Below the pieces are notes generated by a model. It ran no database searches. It was not told the origin of the DNA and worked only from the letters and a program-made list of their open reading frames with translations. From Bacteroidota bacterium (lineage in GTDB: Bacteria; Bacteroidota; Rhodothermia; Rhodothermales; UBA10348), in NCBI GenBank assembly GCA_029262855.1, contig JAJCYP010000054.1, positions 1-64,000 on the forward strand: a DNA stretch of 64,000 nucleotides, in the 5' to 3' direction. Shown here one piece after another: positions 12,450 to 23,735 of the stretch (within the stretch, counting starts at the first letter, position 1; each line of letters starts with the position of its first letter). Both the position numbers and the translations under genes were made by a program.

Positions 12450-14309
12450 ATGGCTCCAAAGACCGTCGAGTCCATAGCCGAAGCCACCATTCTGTTTGCT
12501 GGCGATTCGGGTGATGGCATGCAGCTGACGGGGTCGCAGTTTACGCTGGCAACGGCGTATGCGATGAATGATCTGGCGACGCTGCCGGACTTCCCGGCTG
12601 AAATCCGGGCCCCTGCCGGTACCACCTATGGAGTGAGTGGCTTCCAGCTCCATTTCGGTTCCGTCAACATTCAGACGCCCGGCGACGAGGTGGACCTGCT
12701 TGTGGCCATGAACCCGGCTGCGCTGAAGGTCAATCTGGAGCGGGTCCGCAAAGGGGGCTCCGTTCTGGTGAACACAAGTGCCTTCGAGAAGCGCTCTCTG
12801 GATCTGGCAGGCTACGAGGAGGACCCCCTCGAGAACGATTCGCTCGATGGCTACCAGGTCATCCGTGTCGAGCTGACCAAGCTGACCCGTGAGGCTCTGA
12901 AGGACTCCCCCCTCAACCAGAAAGAGATCGACCGCTCCAAGAATATGTTCGCGCTCGGGCTGGCCCTGTGGCTCTACTCGCGTCCGGTCGACCCCGCGCA
13001 ACGCTGGATCTCACAGAAGTTTGCCAAGAAGCCCGCCATCATGGAGGCCAACCTCCATCTCCTGAAGAAGGGATACCACTACGGGGAGACCACCGAGCAG
13101 TTTGTCTCTCGGTTCGAAGTGGATCCGGCTTCGCTTGAGCCCGGCCGGTACCGCGCCATACAAGGCGTCCATGCGCTTGCTTTGGGGTTGCTGGCGGCGT
13201 CGGTCGAATCCGGTCTTCCCTTGTTCTACGGATCCTACCCGATCACGCCGGCCTCCGATTTGCTCCACACCCTGAGCCGCTACAAGCACTTCGGGGTCAT
13301 GACTTTTCAGGCCGAGGACGAGATCGCGGCGGTCGGCTCCGCGATCGGAGCGGCGTTTGGCGGCTCGCTCGCCGTCACGGGCACGAGTGGCCCGGGTGTG
13401 GCCCTGAAGGCAGAAGCCATCGGTCTGGCGCACATTATGGAATTGCCCATGGTGATCGTCAACATGCAGCGCGGTGGACCCTCTACCGGCCTGCCGACCA
13501 AGACGGAGCAGAGTGATCTCCTCCAGGCGATGTTTGGTAGAAACGGAGATTCGTCAATACCCATCGTCGCGCCGAGTACACCTGGCGACTGTTTCGAGGC
13601 CGCCTACGAAGCAGCCCGCATTGCCGTCACCTACATGACGCCGGTTATACTGCTTTCTGACGGCTATTTGGCCAACGGGTCTGCGCCGTGGCTCATCCCG
13701 GACGTGTCCAAGCTGCCTCCTTTCCCGGTCCAGTTCGCGAAGGAGTCCCTCAGCGATGAGGAGTTTCGTCCCTACGTGAGGAACAAGGAAACGCTGGCAC
13801 GCCCCTGGGCCAAGCCCGGGACCAAGGGCCTGGAGCATCGGATTGGAGGCCTCGAAAAGCAGGATGGGACGGGCAATGTCTCCTACGATGCGGGCAATCA
13901 TGAAACGATGACCCGGCTGCGTGAGGAAAAGACCGATCGCGTAGCCCGCGACCTGCCGCCCTTGGAGGTATACGGAAAGACAGAGGGCGACGTGTTGATA
14001 ATCGGCTGGGGCTCGACAAGGGGCTCGATTGAGGCGGCGACCGACCGCCTCCTCGCTGCAGGCCGCAGCGTCGGCGCCGTGCACCTCCGCCACGTAAACC
14101 CGCTCCCACTGGACCTCAAGAGCATCTGCGATCGGTTTACCCACCTGGTGGTGCCCGAACTCAACAACGGCCAGATGGTCCGCATCCTGCGTGATCGCTT
14201 CCTGCTTCCTTTCCAATCCCTGACCAAAATCCAGGGCCGGCCTTTCCCGGCAGGTGAAATCGTTTCCTTCGTGGAGTCGATGATAGACGGACACACAGAC
14301 AATGGCTGA
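12450..14309 (+). CDS. korA: 2-oxoacid:ferredoxin oxidoreductase, gamma-alpha fusion subunit
   Basis: A 619-residue subunit of the KorAB/2-oxoacid:acceptor type. The N-terminal gamma domain spans about residues 1-190 (ILFAGDSGDGMQLTGSQF). It is fused to the alpha (pyrimidine-binding) domain, which starts near FYGSYPITPASDLLHTLSR, with FQAEDEIAAVGSAIGAAFGG, TGTSGPGVALKAEAIGLAHI and MQRGGPSTGLPTKTEQSDLL. A transketolase C-terminal-like domain follows (LIIGWGSTRGSIEAA). With KorB it should oxidise 2-oxoglutarate (or pyruvate) to acyl-CoA with ferredoxin as acceptor. It overlaps korB by 8 bases, indicating coupled translation. Confidence 0.93.
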   Translation: MAPKTVESIAEATILFAGDSGDGMQLTGSQFTLATAYAMNDLATLPDFPAEIRAPAGTTYGVSGFQLHFGSVNIQTPGDEVDLLVAMNPAALKVNLERVRKGGSVLVNTSAFEKRSLDLAGYEEDPLENDSLDGYQVIRVELTKLTREALKDSPLNQKEIDRSKNMFALGLALWLYSRPVDPAQRWISQKFAKKPAIMEANLHLLKKGYHYGETTEQFVSRFEVDPASLEPGRYRAIQGVHALALGLLAASVESGLPLFYGSYPITPASDLLHTLSRYKHFGVMTFQAEDEIAAVGSAIGAAFGGSLAVTGTSGPGVALKAEAIGLAHIMELPMVIVNMQRGGPSTGLPTKTEQSDLLQAMFGRNGDSSIPIVAPSTPGDCFEAAYEAARIAVTYMTPVILLSDGYLANGSAPWLIPDVSKLPPFPVQFAKESLSDEEFRPYVRNKETLARPWAKPGTKGLEHRIGGLEKQDGTGNVSYDAGNHETMTRLREEKTDRVARDLPPLEVYGKTEGDVLIIGWGSTRGSIEAATDRLLAAGRSVGAVHLRHVNPLPLDLKSICDRFTHLVVPELNNGQMVRILRDRFLLPFQSLTKIQGRPFPAGEIVSFVESMIDGHTDNG

Positions 14310-15504
14310 CGACAAGAAGCCCGCCGGACGCAAGCCTACGTTGCCGCCGGGGATGAAGAAGCCCGCCGGCCCAGCAGTTGCAGGATCGAAGCTGCCCCCG
14401 GGATCCAAGCGGTCCCCGGGATCAAAGCTGCCCCCGGGCAAGCGCCCGCCTGGTGCCAAGCGCCCGCCCGGTGCCCCCGCGGGACCTGGCGGCGATGGCG
14501 CGACTGCGCTCACACGCGCCGACTTCTCCACCGATCAGGACGTTCGTTGGTGCCCGGGATGCGGCGACTACGCGATTCTCGCCACCGTCCAGCGGTTGAT
14601 GCCGGAGATCGATACGCCCAAGGAAAACGTGGTATTCATCAGTGGGATCGGTTGTTCAAGCCGGTTTCCGTACTACATGAAGACGTACGGCATGCACTCC
14701 ATCCACGGACGTGCCCCGACCATTGCCACGGGGCTGAAGGCTTCACGGCCGGAACTGGACGTTTGGATTGTCACCGGTGATGGGGATGGCCTCTCGATTG
14801 GCGGGAATCACCTCATCCATCTGATGCGGCGCAACGTCAATGTGCAGTTGCTCCTGTTCAACAACCAAATTTATGGTCTGACCAAAGGGCAGTACAGCCC
14901 GACGTCCGAGACCGGGAAGGTCACCAAGAGCACGCCATTCGGATCCATCGACCATCCCTTCAATCCGTCGGCACTGGTTCTCGGAGCCGACGCCACGTTT
15001 GTGGGGAGGACCATGGATCGCGACCCGAAGCACATGAAGATCATGCTTCGGGCAGCGCATGACCACCGGGGCACCGGCTTCCTGGAGATCTATCAGAACT
15101 GCAACATCTTCAACGACGGTGCCTTCTTCGAGTACACAGAGAAGGCCACCAAGGCGGACCGTTCGGTCTTTGTGGAGCACGGGAAGCCGCTGGTCTTTGC
15201 CGGAGGCAGCAAGGGAATCCGTGTAAACGGGTTCAAACTTGAGGAAATCGATCTGGAGGGCGGCAAGTGGTCCGCTGACGACTGCCTCATCCACGACGAA
15301 TCGAGTGTGGAACTGGCTGGACTGATCGGGCGCATGTTCAGGAGTGACAGCCTTCCCCAGCCCTTCGGCGTCTTCTATCGCGTCTCGCGTCCGACCTACG
15401 AGGATCAGCTGCACGCCCAGATCAAGGACGTGGTCGATCGTCGTGGAAAGGGAAAACTCGAAGAACTTCTCAATATGGGGGACACCTGGGAGGTATCCGG
15501 GTAG
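14302..15504 (+). CDS. korB: 2-oxoacid:ferredoxin oxidoreductase, beta subunit
   Basis: The thiamine-diphosphate-binding subunit partnering KorA, 400 residues. Residues about 75 onward are a normal Kor beta chain: VRWCPGCGDYAIL, FISGIGCSSRFPYYM, the TPP-Mg motif GDGDGLSIGGNH and NNQIYGLTKGQYSPT. No 4Fe-4S ferredoxin domain is seen, so electrons probably leave via a cluster bound by conserved Cys in this chain and a separate ferredoxin. The first ~65 residues are an unusual basic Pro/Gly-rich tail made of KLPPGSK, KRPPGAK and KRPPGAP-like units, which may be disordered. No pairing with delta or gamma subunit genes is seen nearby. Confidence 0.92.
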   Translation: MADDKKPAGRKPTLPPGMKKPAGPAVAGSKLPPGSKRSPGSKLPPGKRPPGAKRPPGAPAGPGGDGATALTRADFSTDQDVRWCPGCGDYAILATVQRLMPEIDTPKENVVFISGIGCSSRFPYYMKTYGMHSIHGRAPTIATGLKASRPELDVWIVTGDGDGLSIGGNHLIHLMRRNVNVQLLLFNNQIYGLTKGQYSPTSETGKVTKSTPFGSIDHPFNPSALVLGADATFVGRTMDRDPKHMKIMLRAAHDHRGTGFLEIYQNCNIFNDGAFFEYTEKATKADRSVFVEHGKPLVFAGGSKGIRVNGFKLEEIDLEGGKWSADDCLIHDESSVELAGLIGRMFRSDSLPQPFGVFYRVSRPTYEDQLHAQIKDVVDRRGKGKLEELLNMGDTWEVSG

Positions 15505-17329: not shown

Positions 17330-18100
17330 ATGTCGGTTTGGTCACGTTTCAAGCGACTCATGAAGTCCATCTTCGGCGGTGCAATCTCGTCGCTTGAAGA
17401 CCCGAAGCTGATCCTTGAACAGAACATCCGGGAGCTGAACGATCAGGTCCCCAAGATGAACGAAAATATCGCGACGGTGAAGGCCAACGTGATGTTGCTG
17501 CAGAAGGAGCACAAGAAGTACAAGTCAGAGGTCATTGACCTGACATCCAAGATCAAGGCCGGTATTCAGGCTGGCCGCGACGACATCGCAGAGCGGTACG
17601 CGTTGCGCCTTCAGGGTGTCAAGGAGAGCATGGCTCGAACACAGGAGCAGTTGACCTATGCCTCGGCCGCCTACGACAAGGCGCTCCAGGTCAAGAAGGC
17701 CTTCATGCGCGAGAAGGAGCGCAAGATTGCCGAGGCCAAGGAGGCTCTCCGTGCCCATGAGCGGGCCAAGTGGCAGGCGAAGGTGGCCGACACTCTTGAG
17801 AGCTTTGAGGTTACGGGTATTGACCAGACGCACGATGAGATGCTGACCCGCATCCAGGAGCAGACGGCCAAGAACGAAGCCCGGATGGAAATGGCGCTCG
17901 ACTCCATAGACACGGATGCCCTCCAGATCGAGGAGGACGCTGAGCAGATTCGTGCCTCGGAGTTGGTCAAGCAGTTCAAACTGGAAATGGGCGTTGGCGA
18001 CACCAGTGCGGCTCAAGGCGAACCCGAACTCGAAGTACCGGAAGCAGACGTCGAGGCCGGCGCCAAGACCATCGGCAAGCAGCGTTCGAAGACCGATTAA
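17330..18100 (+). CDS. PspA/IM30-family membrane-remodelling protein
   Basis: A 256-residue PspA/Vipp1 (ESCRT-III-like) protein. The N-terminal amphipathic region (MSVWSRFKRLMKSIFGGAIS) would bind membrane. Long coiled-coil helices follow, starting LEDPKLILEQNIRELNDQVP and running through about residue 205. The C-terminal hairpin contains AKNEARMEMALDSI and ASELVKQFK. The tail from about 225 is acidic and basic, without known motifs. It heads a cassette with two further coiled-coil genes. Its stop codon abuts a 164-bp palindromic element (18100-18263), so its original C-terminus may have been altered by insertion. No pspF, pspB or pspC is present. Confidence 0.9.
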   Translation: MSVWSRFKRLMKSIFGGAISSLEDPKLILEQNIRELNDQVPKMNENIATVKANVMLLQKEHKKYKSEVIDLTSKIKAGIQAGRDDIAERYALRLQGVKESMARTQEQLTYASAAYDKALQVKKAFMREKERKIAEAKEALRAHERAKWQAKVADTLESFEVTGIDQTHDEMLTRIQEQTAKNEARMEMALDSIDTDALQIEEDAEQIRASELVKQFKLEMGVGDTSAAQGEPELEVPEADVEAGAKTIGKQRSKTD

Positions 18101-18263
18101 GAAGGCTGTTGAATAACCAGAGCACAACCATTTGGGGCGGCGCAACACCATCTGCCGCGTTGCCCTTCCTCGCCATAGCTAAGGCTATGACTCGTCAGGC
18201 CGCCTTGCATCTGGCGCCACGGCGCTCCCAACTGGGTATACGCTGCTTATTCAACAGCCTTCT
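18100..18263. mobile_element. MITE-like imperfect palindrome with 17-bp terminal inverted repeats
   Basis: AGAAGGCTGTTGAATAA (18100-18116) is perfectly repeated in inverse orientation at 18247-18263. Symmetry continues imperfectly for about 40 bases inward, and a central hairpin (CATAGC / GCTATG, around 18174-18189) completes a near full-length palindrome of 164 bp. It has no transposase gene. The ends resemble those of some IS elements, but the family is not identified. A clear target-site duplication is not visible: flanks are TTA on the left and AGT on the right. It sits exactly between pspA and the next gene of the cassette. No second copy was noticed in the window. Confidence 0.65.
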
Positions 18264-18296
18264 AGTCCTCACCAACGCACCAACCGGGCACACCGC

Positions 18297-18752
18297 TTGA
18301 CTCCCGAAGAGTACCAGCGCCTCAAGGAGGCCGAAAAAGAGCACCTGCGGTCGCTTCGAAAGCTGAAGCAGACCGTACGGAGTCTGCAGCGACAGAAGAA
18401 GCTGACCGACGCCGTTGAGAATGTGACCACAAAGCCGATGGACGCACTCAGCGACCATGATGCGCTGGTTCAGGAACTGGCGCTGGAGACGGCGAGAAAC
18501 GAGGCTCGACTGGACGTTGCGCTGGAGTCCATTTCGCAAGATTCGGTCGAAGAAGCGGCCCGGGATGCCGAGGCCGAGGACACGCTCAGAAAGGCCAAGG
18601 CTGCCGAGCTGGTGCGGCAGTTGCGGAGTCAGGTCGATGCCGGCGTACCCGGACCCGCGGGTCCCCGGACGGAATCAACCTCGCCCAACGCCAAAGATTC
18701 CGGCGCGCGTGACCGACTCCCGGAAAAAACAATTGGTCGCATGAAGCGCTAG
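18297..18752 (+). CDS. Mini-PspA-like coiled-coil protein
   Basis: A 151-residue, highly charged helical protein, apparently starting at TTG (18297). There is no ATG before residue 46 and no strong ribosome site. Residues about 55-110 resemble the C-terminal hairpin of the neighbouring PspA: ETARNEARLDVALESI against QTAKNEARMEMALDSI, and AAELVRQLR against ASELVKQFK. The PspA N-terminal membrane helix and most of the long hairpin are missing. The tail is Pro/Gly/Ser-rich. It is likely a shortened PspA paralogue that could copolymerise with or cap PspA. The palindromic element just upstream may have removed its original start or promoter. Its stop codon lies one base before the next gene. Confidence 0.65.
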   Translation: MTPEEYQRLKEAEKEHLRSLRKLKQTVRSLQRQKKLTDAVENVTTKPMDALSDHDALVQELALETARNEARLDVALESISQDSVEEAARDAEAEDTLRKAKAAELVRQLRSQVDAGVPGPAGPRTESTSPNAKDSGARDRLPEKTIGRMKR

Positions 18753-18753
18753 C

Positions 18754-19614
18754 ATGTCAGACGTCCAGAACTATACCAAGGAGGCGTTCCTCCACCCCTG
18801 GAATCTGACCTTCCTCATCGTCTCGATGCTGTCGGCGTTCAGCATCAGTTCGTTCCTGGGGCCCTCTCCGGTTTTCGAAACCATCCTGCTCTTTGCCGCA
18901 GCGATGGAGCTGATCTATCTGGGCTACATGCCGAGGCAGGAGCGCTTCAAGCGGGCGGTCAAGTCCCGCCGGGCCGCCGAGCATGCCAAGCCGCCGAGCC
19001 AGAAGGAGATATTCCAACACCTCACCAAGTACAGTCAGCGCCGATACGCCCGACTCCGGAAGCTCGAGAAGGAGATCCGCTCCAACTATCGCAAGCTCTC
19101 GTACGCCTCGCAGGGGATGCTGGACAGCCACCTGAAGAAGGTCAACACCCTGCTCGATTCGTACCTGAACCTCCTTTACCAGAAGGAGCGTTACGAGTAC
19201 ACCGCGCACTCGTCCACGGAAACGGAGGTAGTTCGCGCCATCGAAGCCCTGCGTGAGGACATGACCGATGATTCGGATCGCGTTCGGGCCATCAAGTCCC
19301 GCCGTATGCGCATTCTGGAGCAGCGACTGGAGCGGTCGAAGAAGGGCCAGGAAAACCTGGAGATCATTGAAGCGCAGATGGAGACCATCGAGGATGTGGT
19401 CCTCTACATCCACGAGCAGTCCCTGACGCTCCGAAATCCGGAGGAGATCTCCTTCCAGTTGGACACACTTCTGACCGAAGTCGAGGAGACCCAGAGCTCA
19501 GTCGAAGAGCTTGAGGCCGTGTTCGCCTCGCCTGCCGACCTCCTCACGGACCTGGATACGTTCGAGGCACCCGGAACGGAGTCCAGCTCCGATCGTGCCC
19601 GCGAAGGAGCGTGA
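18754..19614 (+). CDS. Membrane-anchored coiled-coil protein of the PspA cassette
   Basis: A 286-residue protein not recognised as a named family. Two hydrophobic segments at about residues 15-34 (WNLTFLIVSMLSAFSISSFL) and 38-58 form a hairpin. Then comes a basic stretch (RQERFKRAVKSRRAAEHAKPP) and about 190 residues of nearly continuous charged helix, ending in an acidic tail. This predicts a cytoplasmic coiled-coil tethered by an N-terminal hairpin. It starts one base after the mini-PspA gene, so they are almost certainly co-translated. A membrane receptor or scaffold for PspA polymers is an inference from context. No PspC or Ist1-type motif is apparent. Confidence 0.7.
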   Translation: MSDVQNYTKEAFLHPWNLTFLIVSMLSAFSISSFLGPSPVFETILLFAAAMELIYLGYMPRQERFKRAVKSRRAAEHAKPPSQKEIFQHLTKYSQRRYARLRKLEKEIRSNYRKLSYASQGMLDSHLKKVNTLLDSYLNLLYQKERYEYTAHSSTETEVVRAIEALREDMTDDSDRVRAIKSRRMRILEQRLERSKKGQENLEIIEAQMETIEDVVLYIHEQSLTLRNPEEISFQLDTLLTEVEETQSSVEELEAVFASPADLLTDLDTFEAPGTESSSDRAREGA

Positions 19615-20430: not shown

Positions 20431-21699
20431 GTGTACGCGATCCTGATTGTGGTAGCACTCGCGTTGAGTGCATTCTTCTCCGGCTCGGAGATCGCATATG
20501 TCACGGCCAATCGTCTTCGGGTTGAGGTGGTCGCCCGGCGAGGGGGAATCGCCGGACCGATCGTCCAGCGCTTCCTGAAGGATCCGACGACGCTCCTGAC
20601 CACGACACTGGTCGGCAACAACCTGTCGCTTGTGGTCTATTCCACGCTCCTGGCGCTGTTTCTCGAGCCCCCCCTTCTGGCGTTTTTCGGCCAGATAGGC
20701 GCCTTGTCTACCGGCGCCACCGAGGTGTTGATTCTGATCACGCAGACGATAGTCGGATCTGCGGTTGTCCTGGTCTTCGGCGAGATCATTCCGAAATCCC
20801 TCATGCGGCAGGTGGCGAGTCGGGCTGTGTTTGCCCTGGCAATCCCTCTCCGGATCAGTTACTTCATTCTCCTGCCCCTGATCAAGGTGGCCGGCTTGGC
20901 CGCGAGCGTGATCATCCGGTTGGCCAACGGGGACGATGCCACGTTTTCCCGCTTCATCCGGCGTGACTTCGAGATGATGATCGAGGAGAGCAAGCTCAGC
21001 GGCGAGTTGGACCTGGACGAAGAGGAGACCGCCCTCCTCTCCAATGTGTTCGCGATGAGCTCCATCCGCGTGAAGGAGTCCATGGTGCCCAGGACGGAGA
21101 TGGCCGCCGTCGAGGAAAACGCTTCGCTGGCCGAAGTGCTGGCTGCGTTCATAAGCACGGGCCACTCAAAACTGCCCGTCTATCGCGACAACATTGACCA
21201 CATCGTGGGCGTAGCCTTTGCCTACGACATGTTCAGTGATCCCGCCAAGCTGAGCGACATGATGCGGGAGGCCACGTTTATCCCGGAGAACAAGCTCTCC
21301 AAGGATCAACTGCGCGATTTCCTGGAGGCCAAGACCTCAATCGCCATTGTGATCGACGAATATGGCGGTACGGCAGGCCTGGTCACGGCGGAGGACCTTC
21401 TTGAGGAGTTGTTTGGCGACATTCAGGATGAGTTTGACCAGGAGGCCCACATCATCCGTAGGGAGGACGAGAACACCATCATCGTCTCGGCTCGACTTGA
21501 ACTCAGCGAGCTCGAGGAAAAGATGGGCTGGCCACTTGCCTCGGGAGACTACGGGACCGTCGCCGGCTTCATCATCGATCGAATGGGGACCATCCCCGCG
21601 GTGAAGGAGGAATTCGAGGACGGAGGCTTCCGCTTTACCATCCTGGAAGCCACGGCCAACCGATTGGAGCTGCTCCGCATCAGGAAACTGGACCGCTGA
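20431..21699 (+). CDS. CNNM/CorC-type transporter-like protein (DUF21-CBS-CorC)
   Basis: A 422-residue hemolysin-family protein starting at GTG 20431. The DUF21 membrane domain covers about 1-180 (ALSAFFSGSEIAYVTANRLR, then helices). A CBS pair spans about 205-330 (VKESMVPRTEMAAVEENASL; VVIDEYGGTAGLVTAEDLLE). The C-terminal CorC/HlyC domain ends VAGFIIDRMGTIP and FRFTILEATANRLELLRI. Homologues take part in Mg2+ or Na+/Mg2+ export (CNNM, YhdP/MpfA). The older hemolysin label is not supported functionally. It is probably co-transcribed with the crotonase gene and converges on the moa operon end. Confidence 0.88.
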   Translation: MYAILIVVALALSAFFSGSEIAYVTANRLRVEVVARRGGIAGPIVQRFLKDPTTLLTTTLVGNNLSLVVYSTLLALFLEPPLLAFFGQIGALSTGATEVLILITQTIVGSAVVLVFGEIIPKSLMRQVASRAVFALAIPLRISYFILLPLIKVAGLAASVIIRLANGDDATFSRFIRRDFEMMIEESKLSGELDLDEEETALLSNVFAMSSIRVKESMVPRTEMAAVEENASLAEVLAAFISTGHSKLPVYRDNIDHIVGVAFAYDMFSDPAKLSDMMREATFIPENKLSKDQLRDFLEAKTSIAIVIDEYGGTAGLVTAEDLLEELFGDIQDEFDQEAHIIRREDENTIIVSARLELSELEEKMGWPLASGDYGTVAGFIIDRMGTIPAVKEEFEDGGFRFTILEATANRLELLRIRKLDR

Positions 21700-22739: not shown

Positions 22740-23735
22740 TCAGAGATTGTCTTGCTCAGGCTTGTCGCCACCGGTTCCGATGGACGTCCGCATCGCGGTG
22801 TCGGCCTGAATGTTCTTCAAATTATAGTAATCCATGACGCCCAGGTTACCGGCGCGCAGGGCGTCGGATATGGCCTTGGGAATTTCTTGTTCGGCCAGCA
22901 CCACCTTGGCGCGCGCCTCCTGAACGGCAGCAATCATCTCCTGTTCACGGGCCACGGCGGCGGCGCGGCGTTCTTCGGCCTTGGCACGGGCGATCTTGAG
23001 ATCGGCATCGGCCTGATCGGTCTGGAGCTTGGCACCAATATTCTCGCCCACATCCACGTCGGCGATATCAATGGAGAGAATCTCGAAGGCGGTACCCGAG
23101 TCCAGTCCCTTCGCCAGGACGACCTTGGATATGGAGTCGGGATTTTCGAGTACTTCCTTGTGCGTAGCCGAGGACCCGATGGTCGAAACGATGCCTTCTC
23201 CGACACGCGCGATGATGGTCTCTTCTCCGGCACCACCCACCAGACGGTCTATGTTGGCGCGGACGGTGACCCGGGCGATGGCGCGGACCTGGATACCATC
23301 CTTGGCGACTGCCGAAACGGCCGGAGTCTCAATCACCTTCGGGTTGACCGAGACCTGCACCGCCTCGAAGACGTCGCGTCCGGCGAGGTCGATGGCCGTT
23401 GCCCGCTCAAAGGTCAGATCTATGTTGGCCTTGTCCGCGGAAATCAGCGAATTGACAACCATCTGGACGTGTCCGCCCGCCAGGTAGTGCGCCTCAAGCT
23501 GCGGTGTATCCAGATAGATCCCCGCCTTGTAGGCCGTGATGAGCGGCCTGACGATCAGGTTTGGGGGGACCTTGCGAAGGCGCATTCCCACGAGATCGCG
23601 CATGAGCTTTATTTTCACGCCCGAGAAGTAGGCCGTAACCCACAGTCCGACGGGTACGAAGTACAGGAAGACCATCGACCCAAGCAGAATGAGCGCGATG
23701 AGGAAGAGTCCTCCGGTGGTCAGCAAGAATTCCAT
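22740..23735 (-). CDS. floA: Flotillin-like protein FloA (SPFH domain)
   Basis: 331 residues, the usual FloA length. A single N-terminal hydrophobic segment ([20 protein letters not shown], about 11-30) anchors it. SPFH/band 7 sequence follows from about 40: [40 protein letters not shown] and [22 protein letters not shown]-terminal flotillin helix follows, rich in Ala/Glu ([20 protein letters not shown]). FloA organises membrane microdomains. It lacks an adjacent NfeD gene. It lies 3 bases from both moaC and the dodecin gene. A membrane-stress link with the PspA cassette about 4 kb away is only suggestive. Confidence 0.93.

Follow-up and report, generated by a model that had tools for sequence, protein, structure and literature searches.

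A class-wide PspA cassette of Rhodothermia with a hairpin-less PspA paralogue, a dedicated membrane protein and a shared C-terminal KTIG[K/R] tag

Members of the class Rhodothermia nearly always carry a conserved three-gene cassette in which pspA is followed by a gene for a short PspA paralogue (mini-PspA) and by a gene for a membrane protein, and this trio is a signature of the class. PspA shares its C-terminal tag, KTIG[K/R], with mini-PspA, and in both proteins a linker of variable length and sequence precedes it. We tentatively interpret the cassette as a lineage-specific ESCRT-III-like PspA module, in which the membrane protein would act as receptor, mini-PspA as a tag-bearing accessory, and a common partner would read the tags; we rate the probability of this interpretation somewhat below even. 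The window, that is, the whole stretch of DNA that was analyzed, comprises 64,000 nucleotides and contains the following features.

17330..18100, forward strand: pspA, a divergent PspA/IM30 gene of 256 aa with an ATG start (Pfam PspA_IM30)
18065..18079, forward strand: C-terminal tag KTIGK of PspA, residues 246-250 (tail alignments)
18100..18263, forward strand: element of 164 bp bearing imperfect inverted repeats of 37 nt, located where pspA ends and outside the conserved cassette
18297..18752, forward strand: mini-PspA gene, 151 aa, TTG start, paralogue of the PspA region from the end of alpha3 through alpha4 and alpha5 to the tail
18726..18740, forward strand: C-terminal tag KTIGR of mini-PspA, residues 144-148, within PEKTIGRMKR (tail alignments)
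18754..19614, forward strand: membrane protein gene, 286 aa, ATG start, Rhodothermia-specific family
18796..18858, forward strand: transmembrane helix 1, residues 15-35 (hydrophobicity and AlphaFold2)
18868..18936, forward strand: transmembrane helix 2, residues 39-61 (hydrophobicity and AlphaFold2), with a K/R-rich stretch after it
19384..19473, forward strand: residues 211-240 of the membrane protein, its best-conserved stretch and acidic (mean column identity, 0.84; six acidic residues and one basic)

The coordinates and lengths of the three open reading frames, and the single base between the second and third genes (18752/18754), agree with those given in an earlier sequence-only reading of this DNA. 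That reading had also proposed a three-gene set in which pspA is joined by a shortened paralogue of its own and by a dedicated membrane protein. The survey of Rhodothermia described below upheld this set as conserved, with the membrane protein occurring only alongside this type of PspA.

The first gene product matched Pfam PspA_IM30 with 66.7 bits over residues 2-207 (cut-off, 33.9) and was the sole PF04012 match in its own genome, as was the case in most class members tested. Its score against the E. coli-type PspA model TIGR02977 was 27.3 bits, below the equivalog cut-off of 242.95. A predicted amphipathic N-terminal helix, alpha0, spans residues 2-19 (hydrophobic moment, 0.52), with conserved residues W4, R6, F7, and R9. 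Compared with the nearest relative, PspA showed a dN of 0.02 and a dS of 0.95. The membrane protein was also slow-evolving (dN, 0.05), and mini-PspA evolved faster than both (dN, 0.19). In all three genes, substitutions fell mainly at third codon positions, indicating purifying selection.

Judged from its sequence, mini-PspA arose by an ancient tandem duplication and corresponds to the rear half of PspA. The two proteins aligned by BLASTP across 139 aa with 28% identical residues (pairwise E = 6e-11) and their family profiles aligned with 99.5% probability (E = 1.8e-22; PspA residues 128-253), values which coiled-coil composition can inflate. The matched region, PspA residues about 127-250, comprises the end of alpha3, alpha4, alpha5, and the tail; mini-PspA thus has neither alpha0 nor the alpha1/alpha2 hairpin. 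When a tree was built from the region common to both proteins, one branch separated all minis from all PspAs (SH-aLRT, 99), and the duplication is therefore older than the split of the two orders of the class. The TTG start is considered right because relatives start their minis at this residue too, using ATG or GTG. The minis share a conserved N-terminal signature. Against mere inflation by coiled-coil composition, the mini profile matched PspA in each class genome listed in full, and mini-PspA itself appeared as a separate second match in 35 of 37 class genomes. Confinement of mini-PspA to this genome was rejected, as it is present in most class genomes. Canonical PspAs of other Bacteroidota were not matched by the profile, and a search of 111 genomes outside the class gave nothing credible, with a single weak match to a 1114-aa ORF.

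The sequence-only reading had likened the 151-aa protein to the C-terminal hairpin of PspA. The paralogy stood, but the hairpin did not: the alignment begins at PspA residue 127, and AlphaFold2 predicted one straight 112-residue helix (residues 3-114; pLDDT, about 97) with a disordered tail, of which the helix alone is trusted because the overall pTM was 0.46. The ESCRT-III alpha1-alpha2/3 hairpin is thus absent from this protein, and a copy of the PspA hairpin was ruled out. Neither a PspA_IM30 match nor any Foldseek match was obtained for mini-PspA.

These features bear on the function that had been assigned to the short protein, namely, modulation of polymer length. In polymers of Vipp1 and ESCRT-III, alpha5 binds to the hairpin tip of a different subunit (PMC8281802). 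Mini-PspA, which matches the region from the end of alpha3 through alpha5 and has no hairpin, might accordingly occupy hairpin tips through its alpha4/alpha5 region and cap or limit the PspA polymer. However, the alpha5 region was deleted in 9 of 81 minis, belonging to several lineages, and in 0 of 81 PspAs, while the tag was always kept, and the predicted structure of mini-PspA is a single straight helix. Because alpha5 is dispensable in the minis, the alpha5-donor form of this model is weakened; the proposed modulation of polymer length found no support, and we consider an assembly regulator of this kind unlikely.

The gap between pspA and the mini-PspA gene is 196 bp here and 29 bp in the nearest relative. 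The 164-bp element is missing from the same site in the nearest relatives, shows a strong RNA fold (z = -5.1), and appears MITE-like. Partial copies of about 70% similarity were found at other sites in relatives, three in genome G004 and a short one in genome G001. Truncation of mini-PspA by this element was ruled out, since the minis of element-free relatives have equal length and the same start residue.

We counted the tag in the tails of 81 distinct cassettes using the pattern [KR][TS][IVLM]G, which is short and is degenerate in some members. The tag was present in 81 of 81 minis and 74 of 81 cassette PspAs, and every cassette held at least two copies. PspA and mini-PspA carried one each in 63 cassettes, one and two in nine, zero and two in seven, and two and one in the remaining two. 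Thus, all seven cassettes with an untagged PspA had two mini tags (Fisher p = 3e-6). On the tree, this trade-off corresponds to two to three independent events and is not significant; it was therefore rejected as statistical proof and is kept only as a lead. KT[IVL]G was found in the last 45 residues of only 1 of 526 other ORFs of the loci, and the tag was absent from the ten canonical Bacteroidota PspA tails compared. KTIG-R-M-K was rejected as a common genome motif, having one occurrence in the genome. Because alpha5 was lost from nine minis and the tag from none, the tag is the part of mini-PspA under the strictest retention.

Co-occurrence of the three genes in relatives, which the sequence-only reading had regarded as a mark of a system, holds across Rhodothermia. 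The membrane protein family was found in 62 of 62 sampled genomes of the class and in 0 of 185 other Bacteroidota, the same class-limited distribution as that of the cassette PspA type. The trio was adjacent in 30 of 30 Rhodothermales loci and in 20 of 20 loci across two orders; every complete locus read showed this adjacency. The gene order in the 30 Rhodothermales loci was pyrimidine phosphorylase (PYNP), pspA, mini-PspA gene, membrane protein gene, and enoyl-CoA hydratase (ECH), apart from contig ends and a few flank exceptions. The same order was found in 16 loci of the other order, which we take to be Balneolales, usually followed by a CNNM gene. A motif-seeded scan returned only loci labeled as Rhodothermales or Rhodothermia (or as genera or families within them) or unspecifically as Bacteroidetes or bacterium.

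Because the flanking genes (PYNP, ECH, and CNNM) are almost as position-conserved as the trio, adjacency alone is weak proof of joint function. The three genes might be co-located merely through a slowly rearranging operon (L31-PYNP-pspA-mini-TM-ECH-CNNM) and not belong to one system. However, the trio stays together where PYNP, ECH, or CNNM has moved (L165, L167, and L168), mini-PspA is a PspA paralogue with the same tag, and the membrane protein family shares the class-limited distribution of the cassette PspA. We regard mere co-location as very improbable.

Other genes near the cassette were also recorded. The CNNM/CorC-type transporter gene (20431-21699, forward strand) is a near-constant downstream neighbor across the two orders. 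A FloA flotillin gene follows downstream of the cassette at a distance of about 3 kb, encoded on the opposite strand (22740-23735, reverse strand); it was rejected as a conserved partner, being near the cassette here and in one Rhodothermales locus (L167) and in 0 of 16 loci of the other order. The gene at 14302-15504 was assigned by eye to the beta subunit of a 2-oxoacid:ferredoxin oxidoreductase-like pair, and its product carries KLPPG/KRPPG-type repeats as an unusual N-terminal extension.

At least two families have lost mini-PspA; their pspA and membrane protein genes remain neighbors, and their PspA still carries one tag. Mini-less loci of this kind, which can serve as natural knock-outs, are L064, L065, L067, L068, L081, L108, and L109. 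Such dispensability, the faster evolution of mini-PspA beside two slow partners, and the short, basic nature of the tag would fit an account in which PspA has the membrane protein as its functional partner, while mini-PspA evolves fast as a peripheral helper (such as a chaperone-like or stability factor) and the tag is a general feature, for instance a lipid-binding or turnover signal. The retention of mini-PspA in two orders, its unbroken tag, and its conserved N-terminal signature speak against this account, which we hold to be rather unlikely.

The third gene product has two N-terminal hydrophobic helices followed by a long helical domain, as the sequence-only reading had described. Because a K/R-rich stretch follows the hydrophobic helices, the rest of the protein, roughly 220 residues, is probably cytosolic. 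AlphaFold2 predicted packed helices (pLDDT, 89; pTM, 0.75). Pfam and PDB-sequence searches gave no meaningful match for this protein, and Pfam PspC and PspB matched none of 56 members of its family. Alignment with the PspA profile by hhalign gave 2.2%, indicating no relation, and the best Foldseek E value against the PDB was 0.17, with query-normalized TM scores of at most about 0.31 among the 50 matches listed. Homology with PspA/Snf7 was rejected, as none of these four approaches supported it. The conserved acidic stretch, residues 211-240, is a candidate docking surface, and the combination of a basic tag with an acidic conserved surface suggests that the two may dock.

The absence of PspB, PspC, and PspF had been noted earlier, and this was correct in part. 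Neither PspB nor PspC was found in the window, no PspB was found in the genome, and nothing in the genome scored above the curated cut-off for PspF. However, two adjacent PspC-domain stretches are located elsewhere in the same genome, outside the window (contig C46, 7130-7532). PspC-domain proteins were found in 59 of 60 class genomes tested, never at the pspA locus, and it is therefore uncertain whether the module is self-contained.

We favor mini-PspA as a tag-bearing accessory subunit because its tag is never lost, its alpha5 is dispensable, and doubled tags stand opposite untagged PspAs. In this preferred interpretation, PspA would be the polymer-forming, membrane-binding subunit, and the 286-aa protein, held by its transmembrane hairpin, would be a dedicated membrane anchor or receptor for it, a role that we consider plausible. 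Mini-PspA, a predicted helical rod without a membrane helix or hairpin, would have as its indispensable feature a second copy of the tag, which is flexibly linked on PspA as well. One partner may recognize the tags of both proteins, and the cytosolic domain of the membrane protein, with its conserved acidic part, is the most likely one; mini-PspA would then add or tune docking sites, or provide tethering, for the PspA assembly. The sequences themselves show the genes, their paralogy, conservation and co-occurrence, and the shared tag; we infer that Rhodothermia PspA polymerizes, that the tags are bound by such a partner, and that the module acts in membrane repair. Several observations weigh against the docking model: the flanking genes also keep their positions, the tag pattern is short and in some members degenerate, the tag trade-off is not significant on the tree, the PspC-domain proteins encoded elsewhere in the genome could be the real receptor, and mini-PspA is missing in some families, whose PspA retains a single tag.

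The cassette bears on how polymers of bacterial PspA/Vipp1 are recruited and controlled in the absence of Vps4-like ATPases. According to Ravi et al. (PMC11237479), the way in which PspA homologues lacking an associated ATPase regulate their assembly is unknown. As a compact natural variant found throughout the class, the cassette supplies candidates for a receptor and for an accessory subunit, together with a short tag that is easy to mutate. The shared tag suggests that an ESCRT-like repair machine may be docked to the membrane in a manner specific to this lineage. The presence of the cassette in Roseithermus sacchariphilus (L047), a cultured isolate, and in genomes assigned to Rhodothermus (L061 and L063) makes it testable.

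Finally, we compared the cassette with known systems. Its neighborhood has probably been seen before, since CBH24266.1 probably comes from Salinibacter ruber M8, a member of Rhodothermia, and a Salinibacteraceae record (L072) carries the trio. In one sentence, Ravi et al. 2024 (PMC11237479) report that in the Bacteroidetes PspA-Snf7 neighborhood of CBH24266.1 a PspA-like coiled-coil protein is encoded by a further, third gene; like the cassette here, that locus would thus combine pspA with a second gene that is PspA/Snf7-like and a third that encodes a coiled coil, and the trio was probably glimpsed there. That sentence says nothing of a truncated paralogue, a transmembrane hairpin, a shared tag, a survey of the class, or losses, and the main text, as far as it was available to us, does not describe the tag, the truncation, the membrane topology, the class-wide rule, or the losses.

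In B. subtilis, PspA needs the operon-encoded membrane proteins YdjG and YdjH for the formation of membrane foci, and pspA-ydjGHI resembles the cassette in encoding PspA with dedicated membrane proteins (PMC8581546), which by analogy favors the proposed receptor role of the Rhodothermia membrane protein. In contrast, the Rhodothermia cassette has no SPFH protein or YdjG/YdjH relative, and pspA-ydjGHI has no short PspA paralogue. The proteobacterial pspFABC system likewise combines a PspA effector with membrane partners; it differs from Rhodothermia in the complement of PspB, PspC, and PspF given above, and the Rhodothermia membrane protein matches neither the PspB nor the PspC family. In the mycobacterial clgR-pspA-pspM(-pspN) system, pspA is followed by a gene for a lineage-specific membrane protein (PMC11237479), which by description resembles the arrangement in Rhodothermia. 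The cassette differs from it in that no ClgR-like gene was seen here, and the mycobacterial system is not known to have a PspA fragment partner.

PspA and Vipp1 form ESCRT-III-like polymers through a membrane-binding alpha0, hairpin packing, and alpha5 contacts, and the C-terminal extensions of ESCRT-III proteins are flexible interaction regions (PMC8281802). Unlike the ESCRT-III subunits, mini-PspA lacks the fold-defining hairpin; the KTIG tag is not a known MIM motif, and no Vps4-like ATPase or MIT domain was identified in the Rhodothermia analysis. PspA and mini-PspA resemble the paralogue sets of eukaryotic and archaeal ESCRT-III in their flexible C-terminal extensions, which in those sets are used for protein contacts (PMC8281802). 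A bolder reading, which we rate as doubtful with an appreciable chance of being right, is that an ESCRT-III-like polymer and a hairpin-less, half-size paralogue share a receptor-read docking tag, with at least two copies per cassette, as an independent bacterial counterpart of the tail-motif/receptor logic of ESCRT-III, with the receptor anchored in the membrane.
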